Shown here: piece by piece, positions 24,735-39,497 of the stretch
Layout: each line of letters opens with the position of its first letter
How positions within the stretch are numbered: position 1 is the first letter of the stretch
Source of the DNA: Myxococcaceae bacterium
GTDB lineage: Bacteria; Myxococcota; Myxococcia; Myxococcales; Myxococcaceae
DNA: 41,001 nucleotides
Assembly (NCBI GenBank): GCA_019686135.1
Contig: JADGHL010000035.1
Span: 1-41,001 of the forward strand
Reading direction: 5' to 3'
Notes under the pieces: model-generated
The model's input: the letters and a program-made list of their open reading frames with translations, nothing else
What the model was told of the DNA's origin: nothing
The model's database searches: none
Made by a program: the position numbers and the translations under genes

Positions 24735-25388
24735 ATGAACGTCACCTCGCCCCGGCCCGCTTCGGTCGTCGTTCCCCGGGCAGCTCCGGCTGCTCGCGCT
24801 TCGGCCGCGCACGATGGCGGCTTCCTCCACGACGTCGGACACTTCTTCGACCATCTGAAGGACGAGTTCGAGAACGCGGGCGGCCGGCTGATTGGCGAGA
24901 TCGAAAAGCTGGGCATCCGCTTCCCGGTCGAGCACTACAAGGCGCAGGTCTCTCCGGGGCTTTGGCGTGGATCGCGGCTCGATGACCGTGGCTGGGCGGA
25001 GCTCAAGGCGATGGGCATCAAGGCCACGGTCGATCTGCGCGCCGAGGAGTCCGGCGAACCGGAGGTGGCGGCGAAGTACGGCATCCGCACGCTCCGCATC
25101 CCCATCACCGACAACACGGCGCCCACCACCGGGCAGGTGAAGACCTTCCTCGACTTCGTCACCCGGCCGGAGAACCAGCCGGCGTATGTGCACTGCGAGG
25201 CCGGCGTGGGTCGCACGGGCGTGATGGTCGCCGCGTACCGCATGGCGGTGCAGGGCTGGAGCGCGGACGAGGCGATCGCCGAGGCGAAGCAGTTGGGCCT
25301 GTCGATGCCCAGCCAGAAGGACTTCCTCCGCCGCTTCGCCCGCGACCTCGCGGCCGGCCGGATCGAAGGCTACGGCAAGGCGGCGTGA
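24735..25388 (+). CDS. Dual-specificity/tyrosine-type protein phosphatase
   Basis: 217 residues, ATG at 24735 with GGAGGGT upstream. Residues about 1-65 are a Pro/Ala-rich then helical extension (FLHDVGHFFDHLKDEF) with no signal peptide. The phosphatase domain follows: SPGLWRGSRLDDRGWAELK, VDLRAEESGEPE with the general-acid loop region around PITDNTAP, and the P-loop HCEAGVGRTG with nucleophile C154 and R160. The domain is of the DSP/PTP (Siw14/PFA-like) kind. These act on phosphoproteins or inositol polyphosphates, and the actual substrate is not readable. It shares strand and neighbourhood with the Ser/Thr kinase. It converges on the transporter gene with only 3 nt between stops. Confidence 0.92.
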   Translation: MNVTSPRPASVVVPRAAPAARASAAHDGGFLHDVGHFFDHLKDEFENAGGRLIGEIEKLGIRFPVEHYKAQVSPGLWRGSRLDDRGWAELKAMGIKATVDLRAEESGEPEVAAKYGIRTLRIPITDNTAPTTGQVKTFLDFVTRPENQPAYVHCEAGVGRTGVMVAAYRMAVQGWSADEAIAEAKQLGLSMPSQKDFLRRFARDLAAGRIEGYGKAA

Positions 25389-26823: not shown

Positions 26824-27063
26824 ATGGTCGCGCGTGTCTTCGTCACCCTGAAACCGGGCGTGCTGGATCCTGCCGGCAAGGCGGTCGAGCGCAGCCTGCA
26901 GACGCTCGGGTACTCGGAGGTGGGCGCGGTGCGGCTGGGCAAGTTCATCGAGCTGCAGCTGGATGAGGCGGATCCGGCGAAAGCGAAGGCCCGCGTCGAG
27001 GAGATGTGCAGAAAGCTCCTCGCCAACACGGTGGTGGAGAACTTCAGGGTGGAGATCGCATGA
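26824..27063 (+). CDS. purS: Phosphoribosylformylglycinamidine synthase subunit PurS
   Basis: 79 residues, ATG at 26824 with an excellent GGAGGAG ribosome-binding site. Family signatures: [20 protein letters not shown] at the start, then [12 protein letters not shown] and [15 protein letters not shown] at the end. PurS bridges PurQ and PurL in the bacterial three-subunit FGAM synthase, the fourth step of de novo purine synthesis. The stop overlaps the purQ start by 4 nt (ATGA). Presence of purS agrees with the short form of purL found 6 kb downstream. Confidence 0.97.
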
Positions 27064-27716
27064 AGGCCGGCGTGGTCGTCTTCCCGGGCTCCAACTGCGA
27101 TCACGACGCCTGGCATGTGATCAAAGACGTGCTCGGCCAGCAGGCGGAGTTCCTCTGGCACAAGGACCGCGACCTCAAGGGGTGCGACCTCATCATCATC
27201 CCGGGCGGCTTCAGCTACGGCGACTACCTCCGCTGCGGGGCGATCGCCCGCTTCTCCCCGGTGATGGACGAGGTCGTCTCCTTCGCGAAGAAGGGCGGCC
27301 GGGTGCTGGGCATCTGCAACGGCTTTCAGATCCTCACCGAGGCGGGCCTGCTCCCGGGCGTGCTGCTGCGCAACGCGTCGCGGAAGTTCATCTGCCGCTG
27401 GGTGGACCTCAAGGTGGAGAACGTCTCGTCGCCGTTCACGCGCAAGCTCGAGAAGGGCCGGACCCTGCGCATCCCCATCGCCCACGCCGAGGGGAACTAC
27501 TACGTCGACGACGACGGCCTGAAGCGGCTGGAGGACGAGGGCCGGGTGGCGTTCCGCTACGTCGAGAACCCCAACGGCGCGCGCCACGACATCGCCGGCA
27601 TCCTCAACGAACGGGGCAACGTGCTCGGGATGATGCCGCACCCGGAGCGCGCGTCGGAGAAGATCCTCGGCAGCGACGATGGCCGGGCCATCTTCGAGTC
27701 GCTCCTCGAGAGCTGA
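27060..27716 (+). CDS. purQ: Phosphoribosylformylglycinamidine synthase subunit PurQ
   Basis: 218 residues. It is a class I glutamine amidotransferase that supplies ammonia to PurL. The nucleophile is C86 in [10 protein letters not shown], with catalytic H194 and E196 in [10 protein letters not shown], and the N-terminal [13 protein letters not shown] is typical. The start overlaps purS by 4 nt. The length is normal. The downstream gene starts 44 nt later on the same strand, with no obvious terminator between. Confidence 0.98.
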
Positions 27717-27760
27717 CCGTCGTTGAACCTTTCGCGCTGCGTCCCCACGTTGCCGACAGG

Positions 27761-28297
27761 ATGGGACGCACCCACGAGCTTCGGCTCCCTTTCAGGATCC
27801 GCCTGGCGCGCGCGGACGATCTGCGCGCGCTCGAGTGGGGCGGGGAGTTCTGGTCGCACCGCGCGCTGATTGAGGACGCCTTCGCACGGCAAACGCGTGG
27901 CGAGGTGGCGATGCTCATCGCCGACGTCAACGACTACCCGGGCGGCCAGGCATGGATCGACTTCGCCCGGAAGGCGGACGAGGGTATCGCGGTCATCTGG
28001 GCGGTGCGCGTCCACCCGATGCTGCGGCGCCAGGGACTCGCGCTCCGGCTGATGATCGCCGCCGAGGAGGCGATCGCCCGGCGCGGTGTGGGCCTCGCCG
28101 AGCTCGGCGTGGAGCCCCACAACCATCCGGCGCGATCGCTCTACCGCCGGCTGGGCTATCGGGAGGCCGGCGCGCAGACCGAACGCACGCGCTGGGTCCG
28201 CCCGGATGGCCGGCCGCTGGAGCTCTTCGTGCGCGTGCGGCTGATGCGGAAGGAGCTGCCCCGCCACGCCACCGTCGTGCGACGGACAGGATCGTGA
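27761..28297 (+). CDS. GNAT-family N-acetyltransferase
   Basis: 178 residues, ATG at 27761. A single GNAT domain has motif A in AVRVHPMLRRQGLALRLM (RRQGLA is the CoA pyrophosphate loop) and motif B in HNHPARSLYRRLGYREAG, characteristic of amino-group acetyltransferases. The charged C-terminal tail (LMRKELPRHATVVRR) is unusual. It lies 44 nt after purQ and 90 nt before the PIG-L deacetylase gene. That second gap holds a 6-bp CCGCCC/GGGCGG hairpin (28336-28358), so the operon may have an internal boundary here. It could belong to purine genes by position only, or to the following sugar-modification genes. Confidence 0.88.
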   Translation: MGRTHELRLPFRIRLARADDLRALEWGGEFWSHRALIEDAFARQTRGEVAMLIADVNDYPGGQAWIDFARKADEGIAVIWAVRVHPMLRRQGLALRLMIAAEEAIARRGVGLAELGVEPHNHPARSLYRRLGYREAGAQTERTRWVRPDGRPLELFVRVRLMRKELPRHATVVRRTGS

Positions 28298-28387
28298 CCG
28301 GCGGCGCATCGGGCGTTGAGGGTTGGACGTCGTAGCCGCCCGGCGCGCCGCTGGGCGGTTCGCACCTCCGGTTCCACCCTCGCGGCC

Positions 28388-29215
28388 ATGCAGCGGGCGA
28401 GCGACAGCGTCGCGGACGATTGGGCCGGGTCCATCGTCTTTCCGCCGGGGACGTGGATCCTCGCCGCGCACCCGGACGACGAGACCATCGGCGCAGGTGT
28501 CACCCTCGCGGCCAGCCCCGGCTGCGGCGTGCTCCACCTCACCACCGGCGCGCCGGTCTCGGCGCGATGGCGGCCCGTGGGCGCTCCGGCATCGCGCGCG
28601 GACTACGCGGCGGTGCGGCAGGCGGAGGTGCGGGCGGCGCTCGCGCTGGCCGGAATTCCACCCGCGCGGATCCGCGCGCTCGGCGGCGAGGACGGCGACG
28701 CCATCCGCCAGGCCGGCGCGCTCGCGCGGTTGCTCGCGATCGAGCTCGACGCGCTGGGGTGTACGCGGCTGGTAACCCATCCATATGAGGGCGGGCACCC
28801 GGACCATGACGCCGCGGCGCTGGTGGCGCGCCTCGCCATCCACGCGCTCGAGCGCGACGGGCGCCGTCCCCCGGCGCTGTGGGAGATGACCTCGTACCAC
28901 CGCTTCGGCGACGCGCTCCGGTCCGGCGTGTTCCTGTCGTCGCAGGGCGACGAACGCATCCGGTGGCTCTCCGCCGAAGACCTCGCCTTCAAGCGCCGGA
29001 TGCTGGCGGCGTTCACGTCCCAGCGCGAGACGCTGGCGCAGTTCCCCGTGGTGCCCGAACGCTTCCGGCCTGCGCCGCGCTGTGCGTTCGCGCTTCCGCC
29101 GCACCCGGGCACGCTCTGGTACGAACGGATGGGCTGGATGAGCGGCGCCATCTGGCGGGACCACGCGCGCCGTCACCTGCGCGCCTTCGGGCTGAGCGAG
29201 GACGCGTGGCTCTGA
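28388..29215 (+). CDS. PIG-L/LmbE-family deacetylase
   Basis: 275 residues, ATG at 28388. The zinc-binding signature AHPDDETIGAG is at 27-37, with the second metal ligand in HPYEGGHPDHDAAALVA. PIG-L/LmbE proteins remove the N-acetyl group from GlcNAc in lipids or small molecules (GPI precursor, mycothiol, bacillithiol, some antibiotics and glycans). The C-terminal part is longer than in BshB. The stop overlaps the glycosyltransferase-fusion start by 10 nt, so the two are translated together. That makes a GlcNAc-transfer plus deacetylation pathway likely. Confidence 0.92.
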   Translation: MQRASDSVADDWAGSIVFPPGTWILAAHPDDETIGAGVTLAASPGCGVLHLTTGAPVSARWRPVGAPASRADYAAVRQAEVRAALALAGIPPARIRALGGEDGDAIRQAGALARLLAIELDALGCTRLVTHPYEGGHPDHDAAALVARLAIHALERDGRRPPALWEMTSYHRFGDALRSGVFLSSQGDERIRWLSAEDLAFKRRMLAAFTSQRETLAQFPVVPERFRPAPRCAFALPPHPGTLWYERMGWMSGAIWRDHARRHLRAFGLSEDAWL

Positions 29216-31293
29216 CGGTCCTCAACGTGGCGTTCCCGTTCGCGCCGGTGGGGCCCGCCGCTGTGGGCGGTGCCGAACAGATCCTCACCGCGCTCGATGC
29301 CGGGCTCACGCGTCGCGGGCACCGCTCCCTGGTCATCGCCTGCGAGGGGTCGCAGGTCCAGGGCACGTTGTTCGCCACGCCTGCGCCGGGCGAACGGATC
29401 GACCGCCGCGCCACCGAACGCGCCTGGGCGCTGCACCGTCTCGCCATCGAGGAGGTGCTCCGCTCCACGCGCGTGGACGTCGTGCACTTCCACGGGCTCG
29501 ACTTCCACGCCTACCTCCCGGATCCGCTGCCGCCCGCGGCGCTGGCGACGCTGCACCTGCCGCCCGGCTGGTACGACGACGCCATCTTCGCGTTGCCCGA
29601 ACGCGGCGTGGAGCTGGTCTGCGTCTCGGACACGCAGCGCGCGAGCTGTCCTGCGCATGCGCGCATCGTCGCCACCATCCCCAACGGCGTCGCGGTGGAG
29701 GCGTTCCACGGCGCGGTGCGGCGGCTCGGCTTCGTGGCGATGCTGGCGCGCGTCTGTCCGGAGAAGGGCTTCCACCTCGCGCTGGAGGCGGCCCGCCGCG
29801 CGGACGTGCCGTTGCTGATGGCCGGCAGGGTCTTCGGCTACCCGGCGCACCAGCGCTACTTCGACGAGGAGATCGCCCCGAGGCTCGACCGCCGGCGGCG
29901 CTTCATCGGACCGGTGGGGCCGCGGGCGCGGAGGCGGTTGCTCGGGCTCGCGCGCGCGCTGCTCGTGCCCAGCCTCGCGCCCGAGACGAGCTCGCTGGTG
30001 ACGATGGAGGCGCTTGCCAGCGGGACCCCGGTCATCGCCTTCCGCCACGGCGCACTCCCGGAGTTAATCGACCACGGCGTCACCGGCTTTCTCGTCGACG
30101 ATCTGGACGGGATGGTGGAGGCGCTCTCGCGGATCGACGAGATCGATCCGAAGCTCTGCCGTGCCCACGCGCGGCTGCGCTTCTCCGTTGAGGCGATGAT
30201 CGCCCGCTACCTGGTGCTGTACGCGCAGCTCGCCGAGCGCGCGCGCACCGCCGCCGCCCGCGTCGCGCCGTCGCTGTCACCCGGATCGGTCGGGCTCCGC
30301 GCCGAGCGGGTTGACGACCGCGCCGGGCTGCAGAAGCTCGAGCCCCAATGGCGCGCCCTGTGGCGGCGCGCGCTGGGGGCCACTCCGTTCAACCACCCCG
30401 ACTGGCTGATCCCCTGGTGCGTGCACTTTGGGCGGCGCGCTGTCAACGCGGTGGCGCTGTTCCGCGGGGACACGCTGGTCGCTCTCGCGCCGCTGGAGGT
30501 GTGGAACGAGGGCGGGGTGCGCGTGCTCAAGTTCCTCGGCGCGGGGATCAGCGACGCGCTGGATGTGCTGGTGGACGGAGACGACGCCGCGGCGCTCACC
30601 CGCGCGCTGTGGGCCGCGCTCATGGACGACAAGAGCCGCTTCGACCTGTGCGAGCTCTCACCGGTCCCCGCCGACTCTCCGCTGCGGTCGGCGGCGCTGC
30701 CGGCGCGGTGGACCCGCTGCGAGGTGTCGCCGCAGCTGCACATCGTGGGCGGCCGGTCGCTGGAGGAGGTCGTGCCGCGGCCGCTGTGCACCGCGGTCCG
30801 GTACAACGCGCGGCGCCTCCAGCGCGAGGCGGGCGTGCGCTTCGAGTCCGCGACGGAGGACACGGCGCCAAAGTTCGTCGAAGCGCTGGCGGCATTGCAC
30901 CGGGCGCGGTGGGCGCGCCGCGGAGAACCCGGGGTGCTGGCCGATCCGCCGGTGGCGGCGTTCCACCGCGAGGTGGCCCCGCGCTTCGCCCGTCTGGGGA
31001 TGTTGCGGATGGAGGCGTTGCGCGTGGACCAGGCCTTCGTCGGCGTGCTCTACGCGTTCAGCGCGCGCCGGCGCTGCCACTACTACCTGAGCGGGTTCGA
31101 TCCCACCTGGGAGCGGCGCAGCCCGGGGTCCGTCCTCATCGGCCGCGCCATCGAGTGGGCGATGGCGGCGGGCGATCAATTCTTCGACTTTCTCCGCGGC
31201 GCCGAACCGTACAAGTACCGCTGGGGCGCCACCGATCGCCCTCTGTGGCAGTGCGCGTTCGAGGCGGCCGTGGCGCAGGGGGCGGCGCGATGA
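29206..31293 (+). CDS. Fusion protein: GT4 glycosyltransferase plus CelD/GNAT-6-type acyltransferase
   Basis: 695 residues from the GTG at 29206; the frame runs unbroken through both parts. Residues 1-345 are a GT4 glycosyltransferase. They show the N-terminal nucleotide-sugar loop AAVGGAEQIL (G21-E24), VVHFHGLDFHAY, PNGVAVEAF, MLARVCPEKGFHLAL, and the E-x7-E signature (E260, E268 in PETSSLVTMEALASGTPVIA). A short Ala-rich linker follows (about 345-362). Residues 363-695 are a CelD/BcsL-type GNAT (GNAT_6) domain: LEPQWRALWRRALGATPFNH, VALFRGDTLVALAPLEVW, YLSGFDPTWERRSPGSVLI and DFLRGAEPYKYRWG. It probably forms a glycosidic bond and then acylates an amine, perhaps the one freed by the neighbouring PIG-L enzyme. 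The product is unknown. Confidence 0.88.
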   Translation: MALTVLNVAFPFAPVGPAAVGGAEQILTALDAGLTRRGHRSLVIACEGSQVQGTLFATPAPGERIDRRATERAWALHRLAIEEVLRSTRVDVVHFHGLDFHAYLPDPLPPAALATLHLPPGWYDDAIFALPERGVELVCVSDTQRASCPAHARIVATIPNGVAVEAFHGAVRRLGFVAMLARVCPEKGFHLALEAARRADVPLLMAGRVFGYPAHQRYFDEEIAPRLDRRRRFIGPVGPRARRRLLGLARALLVPSLAPETSSLVTMEALASGTPVIAFRHGALPELIDHGVTGFLVDDLDGMVEALSRIDEIDPKLCRAHARLRFSVEAMIARYLVLYAQLAERARTAAARVAPSLSPGSVGLRAERVDDRAGLQKLEPQWRALWRRALGATPFNHPDWLIPWCVHFGRRAVNAVALFRGDTLVALAPLEVWNEGGVRVLKFLGAGISDALDVLVDGDDAAALTRALWAALMDDKSRFDLCELSPVPADSPLRSAALPARWTRCEVSPQLHIVGGRSLEEVVPRPLCTAVRYNARRLQREAGVRFESATEDTAPKFVEALAALHRARWARRGEPGVLADPPVAAFHREVAPRFARLGMLRMEALRVDQAFVGVLYAFSARRRCHYYLSGFDPTWERRSPGSVLIGRAIEWAMAAGDQFFDFLRGAEPYKYRWGATDRPLWQCAFEAAVAQGAAR

Positions 31294-32129
31294 GGGTGGC
31301 CGCTCCCGTCGGCATCCGCTGGACCATCGGAGACGTCAGCGCGCGCGGCTTCGAGGCGCTCGGGTATTCCATCCGCGGCGCCTGGCGCATCTTCGGCGCG
31401 TCCGCGCGCTACGCAGTGTGTGTCAACACCGTGCCGCTGGAGGTGGCCCGCGCGCGGGTGGGGCCGCTGCCCGCTCCCGTGGAGTGGATCGACGCCACCG
31501 GCCTGGTTCCGCGCTGGCTGCGCGAACGGTTCGATCCGTCGATGGCCGAAGGCACCGGCTGGAAGTTCGCGCCGCCGCAGGTTTTCCCGGATCGGTACGA
31601 GCTCTCGCTCGACAACGACTGCATCCTCTGGGACCTGCCCGAGGCCATCGCCCGCTGGCTGTGGGAGGACGATCGCAGCTGTGTGATTGCCGAGGACGTG
31701 CGGCGGTGCTTGGGCCGTTTCGAGGCCCTCTGCGGACCGGAGCCGCGCAACTCGGGGATCCGCGGGCTGCCGCCGGGCTTCCCGCTCGAGCGCGCGCTCA
31801 AGTCGGTGCTGGCGCAGATCCGCGAACCGCTCACCTCCGAGCTCGACGAGCAGGGCATGCAGGTGGCCCTGGTCGAACGGAGCGGGAAGGTGAACGTGGT
31901 GCGCACCAGCGAGGTCACCATCTGCTCGCCCATCTGGCCACACCAGCCCTACCTCGGCCGCTGCGGTGCGCACTTCGTGGGCCTCAACGCGCGGTCGCTG
32001 CCCTTCCGCTACTACGGCCGCCCGGCCACCGAATGGGTCGAGGAGAACTGGCGGCGGCTGCGTCCCGAGCTCGACCGGATACTGGGCGACGGGGCGGAAC
32101 CGCCCAAAGCGGGCGCCCTGGGCGGTTAG
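31290..32129 (+). CDS. Orphan protein with DxD motif, possible GT-A-type glycosyltransferase
   Basis: 279 residues, ATG at 31290 overlapping the previous stop by 4 nt. There is no signal peptide. It shows features of a GT-A nucleotide-sugar transferase. The start is MRVAAPVGIRWTIGDVSARG, followed by strand-like YAVCVNTVPLEV. There is a possible DxD metal site (D108-N-D110 in YELSLDNDCILWDLP), an LDEQGMQVALVE segment resembling the acceptor-side DQ region, and GAHFVGLNARSLPF near the C-terminus. Sequence similarity to a named family is not recognised, so the call rests on motif order and on coupling to the PIG-L and GT4-CelD genes. It could also be a binding protein of the same pathway. Confidence 0.6.
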   Translation: MRVAAPVGIRWTIGDVSARGFEALGYSIRGAWRIFGASARYAVCVNTVPLEVARARVGPLPAPVEWIDATGLVPRWLRERFDPSMAEGTGWKFAPPQVFPDRYELSLDNDCILWDLPEAIARWLWEDDRSCVIAEDVRRCLGRFEALCGPEPRNSGIRGLPPGFPLERALKSVLAQIREPLTSELDEQGMQVALVERSGKVNVVRTSEVTICSPIWPHQPYLGRCGAHFVGLNARSLPFRYYGRPATEWVEENWRRLRPELDRILGDGAEPPKAGALGG

Positions 32130-32188
32130 CGGCCGGGGCGGATGCTTCCGCGGGAGCCCAAATCGCCCCGCTGTGTTATTCGCCCCGC

Positions 32189-32905
32189 GTGATCCGCGGA
32201 TGGAACCTGGCCCGCCTGTTCGCCCTGTGCGCCGTGCCCGCGCTCTGCGCGCCGGCGCCGGCGTTCGCCTGGCCCGTCGATGTCATCGTCGACCTCGAAG
32301 CGGACGCCGTGTCGATCCGCAAGCTCACCGCGCTGGGCTGGGCGGAGAGCGACAATCCGGCTGTCGTCGAAGCCGAACGGCTCCCCTCCGGCGAGCTCCT
32401 CCTGACCGCGAAGGGCCCGGGGCGCGCGCTCGTGCTGCTGTACGCCGAAGGGAAGTTCGCGGTGTGGCGCGTCCGGGTGGCGCCGAAGGGTGGGGCGGTG
32501 AAGCGTGAGGACGGGACGGCGGAGCTCGAGGCCGCGAAGGCCGCCTGTCCGAAGCTGGAGGCGACGTCCGATTCGCTGACCGCGCACATCGCCGATGAGC
32601 GCTGCCGGTCGGCGCTGCTGTCGCTCTTTCAGACCGACGCGTACGAGGCCCGCCAGCTGGAGCTCACCTTCGAGGTGCCCGTGCTGCAGGCGCAGCTCGC
32701 GGCGATCGACGAGGCGCTGAGGCCGCTCGGCGTCGACGGGCTGAAGCTGTCCTCGCGCGGCGCGGGCCTGGTCGTCGAAGGCACGGCGACGCCGGAGCAG
32801 AAGCGCAAGGCCCTGTGGGCCATCTTCAAGAACTCGGTCGGACGGGTCCCGTTCGACGACCGGCTCGAGGAGCCGAAGCCAGCACCTGAGCGAAGGACAC
32901 CATGA
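32189..32905 (+). CDS. Exported protein with CpaC/secretin N-terminal-like (pilus-assembly N) domain
   Basis: 238 residues, GTG at 32189. The signal peptide spans residues 1-27, with cleavage likely after AFA. Residues about 33-98 match the pattern of the pilus formation N-terminal domain found before secretins: [12 protein letters not shown], a [18 protein letters not shown] strand pair, and a closing VWRVRVAP. The rest contains two Cys (C114, C137 region) and a BON-like C-terminal alpha/beta segment ([36 protein letters not shown]). No secretin barrel is attached or adjacent. The stop overlaps the purL start by 4 nt (ATGA), an odd partner for an envelope protein. The direct repeat CGCCCCGC at 32164 and 32181 before the start is probably chance. 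Confidence 0.72.
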
Positions 32906-35118
32906 GCGCACACTCCCCCGAAGTCATCGCCCGCCACGGGCTCAAGCCGGACGAGTACGACCGGATCGTCCAGCACCTCGGCCGCGAGCCGAACCTGCTC
33001 GAGCTGGGCATTTTCAGCGTGATGTGGAGCGAGCATTGCTCCTACAAGTCCTCGCGCAGGCACCTCAAGCAGTTCCCCACCACCGGGCCGCGGGTGCTGG
33101 TGGGACCGGGCGAGAACGCGGGCGTGGTGGATCTCGGCGACGGGCTGGCGGCGTGCTTCAAGATGGAGTCGCACAACCACCCCTCGTACATCGAGCCCTA
33201 CCAGGGCGCGGCCACCGGGGTGGGTGGCATCCTCCGCGACGTCTTCACCATGGGCGCGCGGCCGATCGCCAGCCTCAACTCGCTGCGCTTCGGCGATCCG
33301 TCGCACCCGAAGACGGCGTGGCTGCTGGACGGCGTGGTGGCGGGGATCGCCGGCTATGGCAACTGCATCGGCGTGCCCACCGTGGGCGGCGAGGTCGCCT
33401 TCGACGCGTCGTACAACGGCAACTGCCTGGTCAACGCCTTCACCGTCGGCGTGATGCGCGCGGATCGGATCTTCAAGGGCACCGCCAGCGGCGTGGGCAA
33501 CCCGGTCATCTACGTCGGCTCGAAGACCGGCCGCGACGGCATTCACGGCGCGACCATGGCCTCGGCCGAGTTCGACGAGAAGAGCGAGGAGAAGCGCCCC
33601 ACGGTGCAGGTGGGCGATCCGTTCACCGAGAAGCTCCTGCTCGAGGCCTGCCTCGAATTGTTCGAGACCGACGCGCTGGTCGGTATCCAGGACATGGGCG
33701 CGGCGGGGCTCACCTCGTCGTCGGTGGAGATGGCCGGGCGCGCCGGCAGCGGGCTGCGGATCGACGTGGCGAAGGTCCCGCGCCGCGAGGAGGGGATGAC
33801 GCCGTACGAGATCATGCTCTCCGAGAGCCAGGAGCGGATGCTGGTGGTCGCCAAACGCGGCCGCGAAGCGGACGTCATCCGCATCTTCGAGAAGTGGGAT
33901 CTCGACGTGGCGGTGATCGGCGAGGTCACCGACACCGGCCGCCACCAGGTCTACGAGAACGGCGTGCTGGTGAGCGACATCCCGGTGGGCCCGCTCACCG
34001 ACGGTGCGCCGGTCTACGACCGCCCGACGAAGCGGCCCGCGGAGCTGGACGCGCTGCAGGCGTTCGATCCGCTGACTCTGCCCGCGTCGCTGGACCTGGG
34101 CGAGGCGCTGTTGAAGCTGCTGTCGAGCCCGACCATCGCCAGCAAGGAGTGGATCTTCCAGCAGTACGACCACATGGTCCGCCTCGGCGGCGTGGTGCAG
34201 CCCGGCAAGGGCGACGCCGCGGTGGTGCGCGTGGAGGGCACCCGGAAGGGGATCGCCATCAAGGCGGACTGCAACAGCCGCTACGTGTTCCTCGATCCGT
34301 ACGAGGGCGCGCGCCTGGCGGTGGCCGAGTGCGCGCGCAACGTGAGCGTCGTCGGCGGCGAACCGCTCGGGCTCACCGACTGCCTCAACTTCGGCAACCC
34401 CGAGCGCCCGGAGATCATGTGGCAGTTCGCGGAGGCCTGCCGGGGGCTTGCCGCCGGCTGTCGCGAGCTCGGCGTGCCCATCGTCTCGGGCAACGTCAGC
34501 CTCTACAACGAGACCGAGGGCAAAAGCATCCTGCCCACGCCCACTGTAGCGGTGGTGGGCCTCCTGCCGGATGTGACGAAGACGGTGGGGCAGTGCTTCC
34601 AGCGCGCGGGCGAGTTGATCGCCCTGCTCGGGACGACGAGGGGCCACCTCGGCGGCAGCGAGTGGTTGCACGTGTTCCACGGAAAGACCGCGGGCCGTCC
34701 GCCGCCGCTGGATGCGAAGGCGGAGCTGGCGCTGCAAGAGACCGTGCGTCAGCTCGTCCGCGCAGGCCGGCTCTCCTCCGCGCACGACTGCAGCGAAGGC
34801 GGCCTCGCGGTGGCGCTGGCGGAGTGCTGCATGTCCGACGCGGAGCGGCGCGTCGGCGCCCGGGTGACGCTGACGTTCGGCAGCGTCCCGCCGCACGCGT
34901 ACCTCTTCGGTGAGGACGCCACGCGCGTGGTGGTCTCCTTCCCGCCCGATCAACGCGACGCGGTGGAGGCCGCCTGCCGGAATGCGGGCGTTCCGTGCGC
35001 GGTCATCGGCGAGACCGGTGGCGATGCGCTCAGCGTGGAGGGTGTGTTCTCGCTGCCGACGCAGACCTTGAGCCGCGCGTACCGGAGCGGGATCCCGGCA
35101 GTGCTGGGGAGGAAGTAG
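32902..35118 (+). CDS. purL: Phosphoribosylformylglycinamidine synthase subunit PurL (small form)
   Basis: 738 residues, ATG at 32902, the length of the small PurL that works with PurS and PurQ. It converts FGAR, ATP and ammonia to FGAM. Signatures: [19 protein letters not shown] with catalytic H45, [58 protein letters not shown] in the first AIRS-like half and [16 protein letters not shown] in the second. The start overlaps the exported-protein gene by 4 nt, so purL is at the 3' end of a co-directional run that starts with purSQ. No purL terminator with a T run was found. Confidence 0.98.
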
Positions 35119-35670: not shown

Positions 35671-35748
35671 ACCGGCCTACCCCGGCATTCGCATCAGCCG
35701 GTCATGTCGCGGCGCCGCGGACTATCGTCGCGCGCCGGAGGTGGGCAC

Positions 35749-38094
35749 ATGGGTCTTCGCTTCCAGAGCGCGCGAGCGTTTCTATGCGCCGCAGCGCCGA
35801 TCGCGGCCCTGGTTGTGCTGAGCGGCTGCTTCGACGGCAAGGTGGGAGGCATCGACGCCGGCATTACCGGAGACGAGCCGAGCGCACCGGAAGCCGCCTG
35901 TGCGGTGGAGACCATCCTCCAGACGCGCTGTTCGTCCTGCCACGGCGCCACGCCCGCAGAGGGCGCGCCCATGTCGCTCACCTCGCTGGACGCGCTGCGC
36001 GCCCCGTCGCTCCGCGATCCGGCGCAGAGCTTCGGCCAGCGGAGCGTGGCGCGCATGCGCGACACCGTCTCGCCGATGCCGCCGCGCACCGCGACGCCCG
36101 CCACCGAACAGGAGATTGCCACGTTCGCAGCGTGGGTCGCGGGCGGCATGCCCGACTGCGACGGCGGGACGGGAAGCGACGGCGGCACCGGCTACAAGCA
36201 CCCGAACCTGATCCCCCAGGACCAGCTCTTCCAGTGCCAGGGCCTCGTATCGGACGCGCCTGGCCGGATCCGGCGCATCAACCGCTGGCAGTGGACGCGG
36301 AACGTGGGCGGATCGGTGACGCGCGAGTGGACGGGCTTCAGCTTCTATGACAACCCGCTCGATCCCGCCATCACCTCGCCCTACTGGAGCTACGCCGCGG
36401 ACGACACCGTCGACGACACGATGGTGGAGATCATGCTCCCGCTTCTGGGCGAGTACGGCGCCACGTGGGCCGGCCCGTACACCGGCAGCAACCGGCTCGA
36501 GCTCCTCCGCAACGACGCGTCGTTGCGCTGCATGTGGGAGGACGAGTCGCCGTCGCCGGACTGCATCGAACACTACGCCGCCACGTTGCTGGAGAAGGGC
36601 GTGCTCTACCGGCCGCCGAGGCCCGCCGAGCTGAGCCACCTGGTGGAGTTCGCCCAGGCGGTGCTCGCGCAGGAGATCCCCGATGGGACGCAGGATCCGC
36701 GCACGCACACCCTCTCACGCATCGTCGCCGCGGCGATGATGACGAGCGGCGCGCTCTTCCGCGAGGAGCTGGGCACGCCCGACGGCAACGGTCGCGTCCG
36801 GCTCACCGATTGGGAGCTGGGGCAGCAGCTGGCCTACGCGCTCGGCGATCGCGGCCCGGGTGCGGTGCCGCTGTGGCGCTACCCCGACTTCTCCGCGCCG
36901 CAGGAGGGCCACTACGCGGACGTGGCGAACGCCGCACGGGACGGGACCATCCGCGATCCGGCGGTGGTGGGCGCGTTGATCGACGCCAACTTCGGCGGGG
37001 TCGATCCGGAGCGTAGGGACCTCATCCAGGACCTCGACGAGAACCGCCGCTCGCGCCGGGGCGAGTACTGGCTGGGCGACGGCGCGGCGAACTTCTTCCG
37101 TCAGTGGCTCGGCTACACGAAGGTGGAGGAGATCTTCAAAGAGCGCCCCGAGGCCACGTCCGCGTACGACGACGGGAACAACAGCGGCTATCGCGCGCAG
37201 CTGTCCGCCTGGAGCCAGCTGATGGACGGCTACTACGGCTACGAGTCCACGCTGGTGCAGCAGATGGACGACTTCGTCGCGCGCGCCGTGGAGCCCGACG
37301 TGGACGTGCTCGCGACGCTGCTCACCACGCGCACGTTCTTCCTGGCCGCCACCGCGAACTCCGGGTTCGACGGCGACGCGACCCGCTACACCGGCCAGCC
37401 CTACAACACCGAGGTGGAGATCGACGCGAAGAACCCCGCCCAACGCTGGCAGACGCTCCCGGCCGACGAGCGTGCGGGCGTGCTCACCCACCCGGCGTGG
37501 CTGGCGGCGCACGGCGGCAACTTCGAAGACGATCCCTCCGCGGTCCACCGCGGGAAGTGGGTGCGCGAGAAGCTGCTGTGTCAGTACGTGCCCCCGTTGA
37601 GCGACGTGAAGGTGATGGCCAAAGTCGGACCGCACTCGCCGGACAAGAGCGCGCGCGCCCGGCTGTCGGAGGCGACCGCCAGCCCCGAGTGCCAGGCGTG
37701 CCACTCGCTGATGAATCCGATCGGCTTCGCCTTCGAGATCTACAACCACGCCGGCTACGTGCGCGTGCATGACCACGCGCCGGACGGCGGCTTCATGCCC
37801 CCCAGCGGCGCCGTGGAGCTGACCAACATGCCGGAGCCTGCGCTCAACGGGCCGGTGAGGGACGCGGTCGAATTGAGCGAGAAGCTGGCGCACTCGAAGC
37901 ACGTGAAGCGCTGCTTCATCCGCCAGGCCTTCCGCTACTACATGGGCCGCGACGAGAACCTCAGCGACGCGTGCACGCTCGCGAAGATGGAGCAGGCATA
38001 CGACGCGAACGGCGGCTCTTTCCGGTCGATGCTGAAGGCGCTGATGACCTCCGACACCTGGACCACCCGCCGGGCTCCGGCGAAGGGAGAGTGA
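35749..38094 (+). CDS. c-type-haem lipoprotein of the DUF1592/DUF1588/DUF1585 (planctomycete-cytochrome-associated) class
   Basis: 781 residues, ATG at 35749 with GGAGGTGGG upstream; an open frame 45 nt further up lacks this site. The signal ends in a lipobox (VLSGC, Cys 27). The haem site CSSCH is at 61-65 in the N-terminal cytochrome domain, and a second CxxCH (CQACH) is at 648-652. Between them lie regions typical of DUF1592 (HTLSRIVAAAMMTSGALFRE, FFRQWLGYTKVEEI) and DUF1588 (HPAWLAAHGGNFEDDPSAVH, RGKWVREKLLCQYVPPL, CHSLMNPIGFAFEIYN). A DUF1585 tail has SKHVKRCFIRQAFRYYMGR. The set is widespread in Planctomycetota and Myxococcota, normally followed by a DUF1552 gene as here. It is a probable envelope oxidoreductase; the reaction is not established. 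Confidence 0.9.
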   Translation: MGLRFQSARAFLCAAAPIAALVVLSGCFDGKVGGIDAGITGDEPSAPEAACAVETILQTRCSSCHGATPAEGAPMSLTSLDALRAPSLRDPAQSFGQRSVARMRDTVSPMPPRTATPATEQEIATFAAWVAGGMPDCDGGTGSDGGTGYKHPNLIPQDQLFQCQGLVSDAPGRIRRINRWQWTRNVGGSVTREWTGFSFYDNPLDPAITSPYWSYAADDTVDDTMVEIMLPLLGEYGATWAGPYTGSNRLELLRNDASLRCMWEDESPSPDCIEHYAATLLEKGVLYRPPRPAELSHLVEFAQAVLAQEIPDGTQDPRTHTLSRIVAAAMMTSGALFREELGTPDGNGRVRLTDWELGQQLAYALGDRGPGAVPLWRYPDFSAPQEGHYADVANAARDGTIRDPAVVGALIDANFGGVDPERRDLIQDLDENRRSRRGEYWLGDGAANFFRQWLGYTKVEEIFKERPEATSAYDDGNNSGYRAQLSAWSQLMDGYYGYESTLVQQMDDFVARAVEPDVDVLATLLTTRTFFLAATANSGFDGDATRYTGQPYNTEVEIDAKNPAQRWQTLPADERAGVLTHPAWLAAHGGNFEDDPSAVHRGKWVREKLLCQYVPPLSDVKVMAKVGPHSPDKSARARLSEATASPECQACHSLMNPIGFAFEIYNHAGYVRVHDHAPDGGFMPPSGAVELTNMPEPALNGPVRDAVELSEKLAHSKHVKRCFIRQAFRYYMGRDENLSDACTLAKMEQAYDANGGSFRSMLKALMTSDTWTTRRAPAKGE

Positions 38095-38096
38095 CC

Positions 38097-39497
38097 ATGT
38101 TCACCCGCCGCGCGTTCCTTCAGTCCGTCGCCGCCACCGGCCTGTTCGCCGCGCTCTACCGCGAGGCGTTCGCGCAGTCCGTCACGCCCCGGCGCCTGGT
38201 GCTGGTGCTCGAGTGCAACGGCATCTACCCGGAGGCGTTCCTCTCCGCCGGCACCCGCGCCGCGCTCGGCGCGGAGAAGATCGGCGGCCGCCATCACAAC
38301 TTCGGCGACAGCTACCCGGATTCGCCGCTCGTCCGGGAGGGAGACGACCTCTCCACCGCGCTCTGCCTTCAGCCGCTGGCCGGAAGCGGGGCGGAGATCT
38401 CGCTGGTGAACCGCTCGGCGGTGGTGCTCGGGTTGTCGTCGTTGATCACCGGCGGAGGGCACTCCACCGGCACGGGCGCGCTGAGCTGCGCGGTGGATGG
38501 CGCCGCCGCCACGTTCGATGCGGTGATCGCCCCGAGGCTCAAGGGCACCGCCCCGTTCGATGCGATCCGCTTGGGCACCAGCTCCTCGCTGACGCCGATC
38601 GCCTACCAGACCTGCGCGTACGGACCGCGGCGGCCGGCAGGCATCCTCGTGAACCCAGCGCTCGCCTGGAACACCATCTTCGGGTCGATCGCCGCGGGCA
38701 CCTCCGCCGGCCTCGAGCGCAGCATGCTCTTCGACTTCGCGCGCGACGACGTCGTCACTGCGCTCAAGACCTTCTCCGGCAACTCGCGCGAGCGCGCCAA
38801 GCTGGAGCGGTACCTCGAGTCACTGGAGAAGCTGCGCGCCCGCGAGGCCCAGCTCAAGAGCATGGCCGCGAAGGTGCAGCCGTTGTTGCCGCCCGCGCCG
38901 GCGGACAACCCGCTGTTGCAGGGAGGCGGCAGCCCGCCGGATTCGCTCAAGTGGCTGGAGGCGCAGTTCGAGATCGCCACCTCCGCGTTGCTGGGCGGGC
39001 TCACCAACCTGGTCGTGCTGGCGTCGGGCACCTCCGGGTTCGACGTGCACTACGACTCGATCATCCCCGACATCGGCCGTCATGACCTGCAGCACGGCAT
39101 CGACAACCCTGGCAACTACACCGCCATCGCCGCGGTCACGCGCAAGCACGTGGAGCTGGTGGCGAAGCTGGCGCGCGCGCTCGAGGCCACGCCGGAGGTG
39201 GGCGCGGACGGCACGATGCTCGACCACACGATCATCGTCTACATGTCCGACAACGGCGAACAGCACCACTCGGAGGCGCGCGAGTGGCCGAAGCTGATCG
39301 TCGGCGGCAACGCGCTGGGGATGAAGACCGACGGCCGCACCGTGATCTACCCGCGCGACGGCGCCGCGCGGAACCGGCAGGTCTCGAACCTCTTCAACAC
39401 GCTCGGGCACGCCTTCGGGGACAGCGACTTCAACACCTTCGGCGCGGAGGGCACGACCCGCATCGCCGCCGGGCCGCTGTCGGAGATCTGGGCGTAG
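38097..39497 (+). CDS. DUF1552-family exported protein
   Basis: 466 residues, ATG at 38097, 2 nt after the stop of the haem lipoprotein. The N-terminus has a Tat-like twin Arg and hydrophobic stretch (TRRAFLQSVAATGLFAALY), then cleavage after AFA. The domain includes RRLVLVLECNGIYPEAFLS, GGGHSTGTGALSC, FDAVIAPRL and IIVYMSDNGEQHHSE, matching DUF1552, an alkaline-phosphatase-like family with metal-ligand candidates (SDNGEQHH). These proteins occur almost always next to DUF1592/DUF1588 proteins and are thought to act together in the periplasm or on the surface. The biochemical role is unknown. Tat export would fit co-factor loading before transport. Confidence 0.9.
   Translation: MFTRRAFLQSVAATGLFAALYREAFAQSVTPRRLVLVLECNGIYPEAFLSAGTRAALGAEKIGGRHHNFGDSYPDSPLVREGDDLSTALCLQPLAGSGAEISLVNRSAVVLGLSSLITGGGHSTGTGALSCAVDGAAATFDAVIAPRLKGTAPFDAIRLGTSSSLTPIAYQTCAYGPRRPAGILVNPALAWNTIFGSIAAGTSAGLERSMLFDFARDDVVTALKTFSGNSRERAKLERYLESLEKLRAREAQLKSMAAKVQPLLPPAPADNPLLQGGGSPPDSLKWLEAQFEIATSALLGGLTNLVVLASGTSGFDVHYDSIIPDIGRHDLQHGIDNPGNYTAIAAVTRKHVELVAKLARALEATPEVGADGTMLDHTIIVYMSDNGEQHHSEAREWPKLIVGGNALGMKTDGRTVIYPRDGAARNRQVSNLFNTLGHAFGDSDFNTFGAEGTTRIAAGPLSEIWA

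Follow-up and report, generated by a model that had tools for sequence, protein, structure and literature searches.

A GT4 glycosyltransferase joined in one frame to a CelD-type acyltransferase in a Myxococcaceae genome, its split counterparts and a possible pathway

A gene in the draft genome of a Myxococcaceae bacterium reads as two enzymes in one polypeptide, a GT4 glycosyltransferase followed by a CelD-type (PF13480) acyltransferase, and it directly follows a gene for a PIG-L de-N-acetylase. The question raised by this locus is whether the two halves are genuinely joined and, if so, what sequence of reactions they might carry out together. We use the term window to refer to the whole stretch of 41,001 nucleotides that was analysed; its relevant features are listed below.

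27060..27716, + strand: purQ, left flank of the cassette
27717..32188, + strand: putatively inserted cassette (GNAT, PIG-L, fusion, F), approximately 4.4 kb, between purQ and gene X
27761..28297, + strand: single-domain GNAT acetyltransferase, 45-46% identical to the GNAT that ends the Skermanella cluster
28388..29215, + strand: PIG-L/LmbE de-N-acetylase, with AHPDDE and HPDH motifs and a 10-nt overlap with the fusion
29206..31293, + strand: GT4 glycosyltransferase - CelD-type (PF13480) acyltransferase fusion, 695 aa (Pfam, codon-position GC, AlphaFold2)
29206..30240, + strand: GT4 (GT-B) domain, residues 1-345, with RVCPEKG from residue 182 and E260-x7-E268
30241..30291, + strand: linker, residues 346-362, approximately 17 residues
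30292..31245, + strand: tandem GNAT region, residues 363-680 (Pfam, model)
30796-31215, + strand: PF13480 proper, residues 531-670 (Pfam)
31290..32129, + strand: protein F, orphan family, with a 4-nt overlap with the fusion
32189..32905, + strand: gene X, exported-looking, right flank, found between purQ and purL in relatives
32902..35118, + strand: purL

The fused gene and its two halves

The interval 29206-31293 translates as a single stop-free frame of 695 aa. Two Pfam families above their curated cut-offs cover the N-terminal half (Glyco_transf_4 at residues 20-165; Glyco_trans_1_4 at residues 173-310, E 5.7e-18), and Acetyltransf_6 covers residues 531-670 (E 8e-34; 117.3 against 22 bits). 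Codon-position GC, taken in 150-nt steps, keeps the order pos3 > pos1 > pos2 unbroken through both halves and the linker, and so there is no change of frame. The frame stays open upstream, with a GTG at 28879, and the N-termini of homologues (VALTVLNV / MPLTVLNV / MALTVLQV) align with the start at 29206. The PIG-L frame opens at 28316, with a likely start at 28388, and its end at 29215 gives the 10-nt overlap. The gene structure described in the earlier note, with two complete domains, a short linker, no frame change and an overlapping PIG-L gene, is therefore upheld. A lost stop codon or a frameshift arising in sequencing or assembly would be conceivable for a window drawn from a 245-contig draft, but the unbroken coding pattern argues against such an origin, and it is ruled out by four other genomes that are fused alike, three of them single-contig assemblies; we leave it next to no probability.

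In the AlphaFold2 model, the N-terminal half adopts a GT-B fold (mostly pLDDT 80-97), and after residue 363 two GNAT-like beta/alpha units follow in succession. The second unit is mostly at pLDDT 80-90 and the first only moderately predicted, while residues 476-528 fall below 50. The fold-search matches listed for the model belong to the GT4 half, and a sequence search gave no solved relative of the acyltransferase half; the predicted secondary-structure order of the latter fits two GNAT units. Together with the PF13480 match, this predicted topology is compatible with a GNAT fold for the C-terminal half, which has the SPG...FDFLRGAEPYKYRWGA stretch and belongs clearly to PF13480. This half is thus of the same family as the CelD/PF13480 acyltransferases, but is joined to a GT4 domain. 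Nine further PF13480 stretches occur in the same genome.

The GT4 half matches GT4 structures with Z scores of 28-41. The nearest solved structure is the glucosylsucrose synthase tll1591, TeGSS (Z 40.9, rmsd 2.2 A over 333 residues, 32% identity; phmmer E 5.8e-45), and tetrahydrobiopterin glucosyltransferases are also among the nearest. TeGSS (PDB 7FG9, 7FGA, 8X3Q) is a UDP-glucose:sucrose glucosyltransferase that requires Tyr18 for activity (PMC9909042). Its phosphate-binding Arg, Lys and Glu are conserved in the GT4 half: the donor-phosphate Arg/Lys lie in RVCPEKG at 182, and PETSSLVTME at 259 carries the E-x7-E, of which E268 is invariant in our alignment A1. However, Trp10 of TeGSS is replaced by Phe12 and Tyr18 by Val20, and TeGSS has no acyltransferase domain. 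Since the solved relatives move glucose and Tyr18 aligns with Val20, neither donor nor acceptor can be carried over from these relatives to the fusion.

Fused and split relatives

Among 195 genomes of the window's phylum, the GT4 subfamily (membership at E <= 1e-60) is represented in six: the window genome, G039, G045, G085, G086 and G054. In four of these besides the window genome (G039, G045, G085 and G054) the fusion is also one frame, of 689-745 aa and 43-46% identical to the window fusion. The halves are therefore not separate genes in all relatives; five genomes from four genera retain the fusion, and both of its halves are conserved. The sixth genome, G086, has PIG-L and GT4 genes with no adjoining acyltransferase homologue. 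Trees of the two halves, read on the ingroup only (long-branch outgroup rows such as L022, L026 and L021 were left out), do not settle whether the fusion arose once. In G054 the linker is longer (about 61 aa) and repeat-like, with a SPPPSPSPLQGEG...SPPGGEGRG stretch (L047), and looks as if a short repeat element had been inserted between the domains. No fusion was found among the sampled 297 Acidobacteriota and 296 Actinomycetota genomes at strict thresholds, and no viral relatives were found. The Pseudomonadota were covered through plasmids; plasmid records gave no fusion, with just two covering 80% of the query, both of them split.

The PIG-L protein of the window matches PF02585 (50.8 against 28.2 bits) and has the AHPDDE and HPDH zinc motifs. 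It is linked to the fusion: PIG-L is a conserved neighbour, the catalytic motifs of both GT4 and PIG-L are intact, and the 10-nt PIG-L/GT4 overlap recurs in Skermanella, G045, G054 and G430, and is thus conserved across phyla. In G039 the PIG-L gene is convergent with the fusion. For two relatives (L077:10624-11490 and L078:7522-8445), AHPEDE replaces AHPDDE, at the presumed catalytic aspartate.

The same set of genes is present in unfused form elsewhere. On the Skermanella plasmids pSM-3 and pSR-3 the order is F (on the opposite strand), a PF13524 glycosyltransferase, a nucleotidyltransferase, PIG-L, GT4, GNAT_6 and GNAT, with overlaps of 10 nt for PIG-L/GT4 and 4 nt for GT4/GNAT_6. Acidobacteriota genome G430 has the glycosyltransferase, nucleotidyltransferase, PIG-L, GT4 and GNAT_6 in this order, the last two as separate, overlapping genes, while in KBS 96 and two Bryobacteraceae (Acidobacteriota) GT4 and GNAT_6 are convergent. 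These split sets resemble that of the window (GT4 47-55%, GNAT_6 31-42% and PIG-L 38-43% identity where present), often also in gene order, but in them the GT4 and the acyltransferase are separate and sometimes convergent. Skermanella also has F (57-59%), which occurs in KBS 96 and G480 as well, and the extra GNAT (46%). Elsewhere the set is partial: PIG-L is followed directly by GNAT_6, with no GT4 of this kind, in G027, G007 and G106, and no relative of PIG-L or GT4 lies within about 8 kb of the acyltransferase in G241 and G228.

Because separate sets exist in Skermanella and Acidobacteriota, the window gene is the fused version of an existing gene set, and its probable origin is a pair of overlapping genes of the Skermanella kind. 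The earlier note, which knew of separate genes for such steps and thought the fusion perhaps undescribed, was correct in the former respect. The latter is not established, since our literature coverage was partial; within the literature searched we found no prior description of the fusion, and nothing relevant on PF13480, on DUF4202/CgeB or on teicoplanin-type logic.

In the window the order is purS, purQ, GNAT, PIG-L, fusion, F, X and purL. In G010 and G009, purQ, X and purL follow one another directly and the cassette is absent, from which synteny we infer that the four genes came into the purine operon of the window lineage together, as one cassette. Each of the four has a counterpart in the Skermanella cluster. 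Three other genes of the window encode a dual-specificity/tyrosine phosphatase-like protein (24735-25388; PTP-NADK, Y_phosphatase2), a PSCyt3/PSD2 (DUF1588/DUF1585) protein with a weak cytochrome match (35704-38094) and an HXXSHH (DUF1552) protein that overlaps it (37971-39497).

A possible order of reactions

We consider the fusion to be a candidate two-headed enzyme, probably cytoplasmic, of a small glycoconjugate pathway. Its GT4 head would move a sugar from an NDP donor onto an acceptor, the sugar probably being an N-acetylhexosamine; PIG-L, encoded next to it, would strip the N-acetyl group; and the amine so exposed would receive a different acyl group from the tandem-GNAT head. Making donors or extending the conjugate may fall to F, to the extra GNAT and to a glycosyltransferase/nucleotidyltransferase pair whose genes lie elsewhere in the genome. 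We give this scheme, whose donor, acceptor, acyl group, order and product are inferred, about an even chance of being right. Transfer, de-N-acetylation and N-acylation is the reading best supported by the kinds of enzymes encoded and by the repeated pairing of PIG-L with GNAT_6; where GNAT_6 follows PIG-L and this GT4 is absent, the pair would deacetylate and then acylate. Also in its favor are the four fused relatives, the split sets of like order, the 10-nt overlap shared across phyla, the intact GT4 and PIG-L motifs, the nucleotidyltransferase that accompanies this GT4 subfamily (see below) and the insertion of the cassette as a unit. Membership of the fold family does not reveal whether acyl-CoA, acyl-ACP or aminoacyl-tRNA is the acyl donor. 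Counting against the scheme are the PIG-L/GT4 pair of G086, which lacks an adjoining acyltransferase, the convergent PIG-L of G039 and the solitary acyltransferases of G241 and G228.

Two proposals of the earlier note fared less well. Transfer of an amino sugar is not what the nearest solved structures suggest, as these use UDP-glucose with sucrose or tetrahydrobiopterin. Channelling from the GT4 to the acyltransferase is weakly supported because the presumed middle step is on another protein, and PIG-L remains the partner of the acyltransferase in genomes that lack this GT4 at the locus; a complex with PIG-L, or co-expression, would serve equally well. Fusion would rather keep the two activities in equal amounts or close together.

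Several known pathways follow related step logic. In the biosynthesis of bacillithiol (BshA/BshB) and mycothiol (MshA/MshB/MshD), a GT4 enzyme transfers the sugar, a PIG-L-type enzyme deacetylates it and the exposed amine is then modified, as proposed here, but with separate genes. In teicoplanin and A40926, GlcNAc transfer, deacetylation and N-acylation likewise succeed one another, but with a glycosyltransferase of a different family, separate genes and an antibiotic as acceptor. That the cassette itself belongs to a low-molecular-weight thiol pathway is suggested by the similar kinds of enzymes (GT4, PIG-L and GNAT) and by weak NCBIfam matches to BshA, MshA and BshB2, but these score far under the curated cut-offs (39.4 against 273.7, 39.1 against 462.5 and 28.2 against 195.25 bits, respectively). 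Moreover, no cysteine-adding enzyme is found among the cassette genes, and relatives have extra glycosyltransferases and epimerases near the nucleotidyltransferase of the module. Membership in the bacillithiol or mycothiol pathway is rejected on the equivalog scores (BshA, BshB2, MshA), and a thiol pathway of this general type is very improbable.

Two other alternatives retain the glycoconjugate setting. The fusion might be a by-product of overlapping genes within one pathway, with the acyltransferase head acting on a residue or at a stage other than the sugar moved by its own GT4. This would account for PIG-L/GNAT_6 pairs that lack the GT4 and for the GT4/PIG-L pair that lacks GNAT_6; the 4-nt GT4/GNAT_6 overlap of Skermanella also favors it, since one small change would fuse both genes, as do a linker conserved in neither length nor sequence and trees in which neither half shows a single origin. 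Retention of the fusion across four genera, with both halves conserved, argues the other way, and we regard the by-product explanation as a serious possibility that is nevertheless distinctly less probable than the scheme of transfer, deacetylation and acylation. Alternatively, PIG-L may act before transfer, on the nucleotide sugar or another precursor, so that transfer and acylation would be consecutive steps left to one polypeptide. This order would give the fusion mechanistic sense, and in most clusters the PIG-L gene lies ahead of that for the GT4 (gene order being weak evidence), but the characterised PIG-L enzymes of related pathways, MshB and BshB, act after glycosyl transfer, and we judge it unlikely. 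A conserved GT4-CelD-type fusion offers a tangible way into the PF13480 enzymes, few of whose substrates are known and for which our sequence search gave no solved relative.

The wider gene set and protein F

Close relatives (64-69% identity) of the nucleotidyltransferase of the Skermanella cluster are present in 13 of the 195 genomes, including all six that have the GT4 subfamily (uncorrected hypergeometric 2.4e-8, a value that ignores relatedness, many of the genomes being closely related, and is not to be read as a probability). In other genomes it is clustered with PIG-L/GT4/GNAT, and in the window genome it adjoins a PF13524 glycosyltransferase on contig C224. In several genomes, NAD-dependent epimerases, further PF13524 glycosyltransferases, a glycosyl-hydrolase-core-like protein and a DUF4202 protein are located nearby. 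This co-occurrence and clustering imply that the fusion may be one part of a larger glycoconjugate pathway, and the linked gene set defines a pathway that is testable in cultured bacteria. More tentatively, and with the balance against it in our estimation, the fusion, PIG-L, F, the extra GNAT, the PF13524 glycosyltransferases and the nucleotidyltransferase could form one undescribed system that has spread horizontally among the window's phylum (Myxococcota), Acidobacteriota and Alphaproteobacteria and whose product is a new N-acylated amino-sugar conjugate; F would then be a new glycosyltransferase family. On C224 of the window genome (G000; L088 8162-14554, L089 1971-7875), epimerases and three more PF13524-like stretches lie near the PF13524/nucleotidyltransferase pair, and the glycosyl-hydrolase-core-like protein is 73-78% identical between this genome and others.

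Four further members of the F family are 50-64% identical to the window copy (L044:5292-6107; L039:6134-6964; L074:6088-6924; L071:9382-10230), and two motifs, LDND and GIRGLPP, are invariant. No credible match to F came from PDB or Pfam, whether by sequence or by profile, and structure prediction from a two-sequence alignment reached only pLDDT 40. With its LDND motif, F is perhaps a new GT-A-like glycosyltransferase family. In G106 (L071, 6453-7736 and 9066-10230), a short GT4-like remnant (40% over 96 aa) comes after the F gene, and the two lie near a homologue of the phage recombination protein Bet, which suggests that this locus may be mobile.
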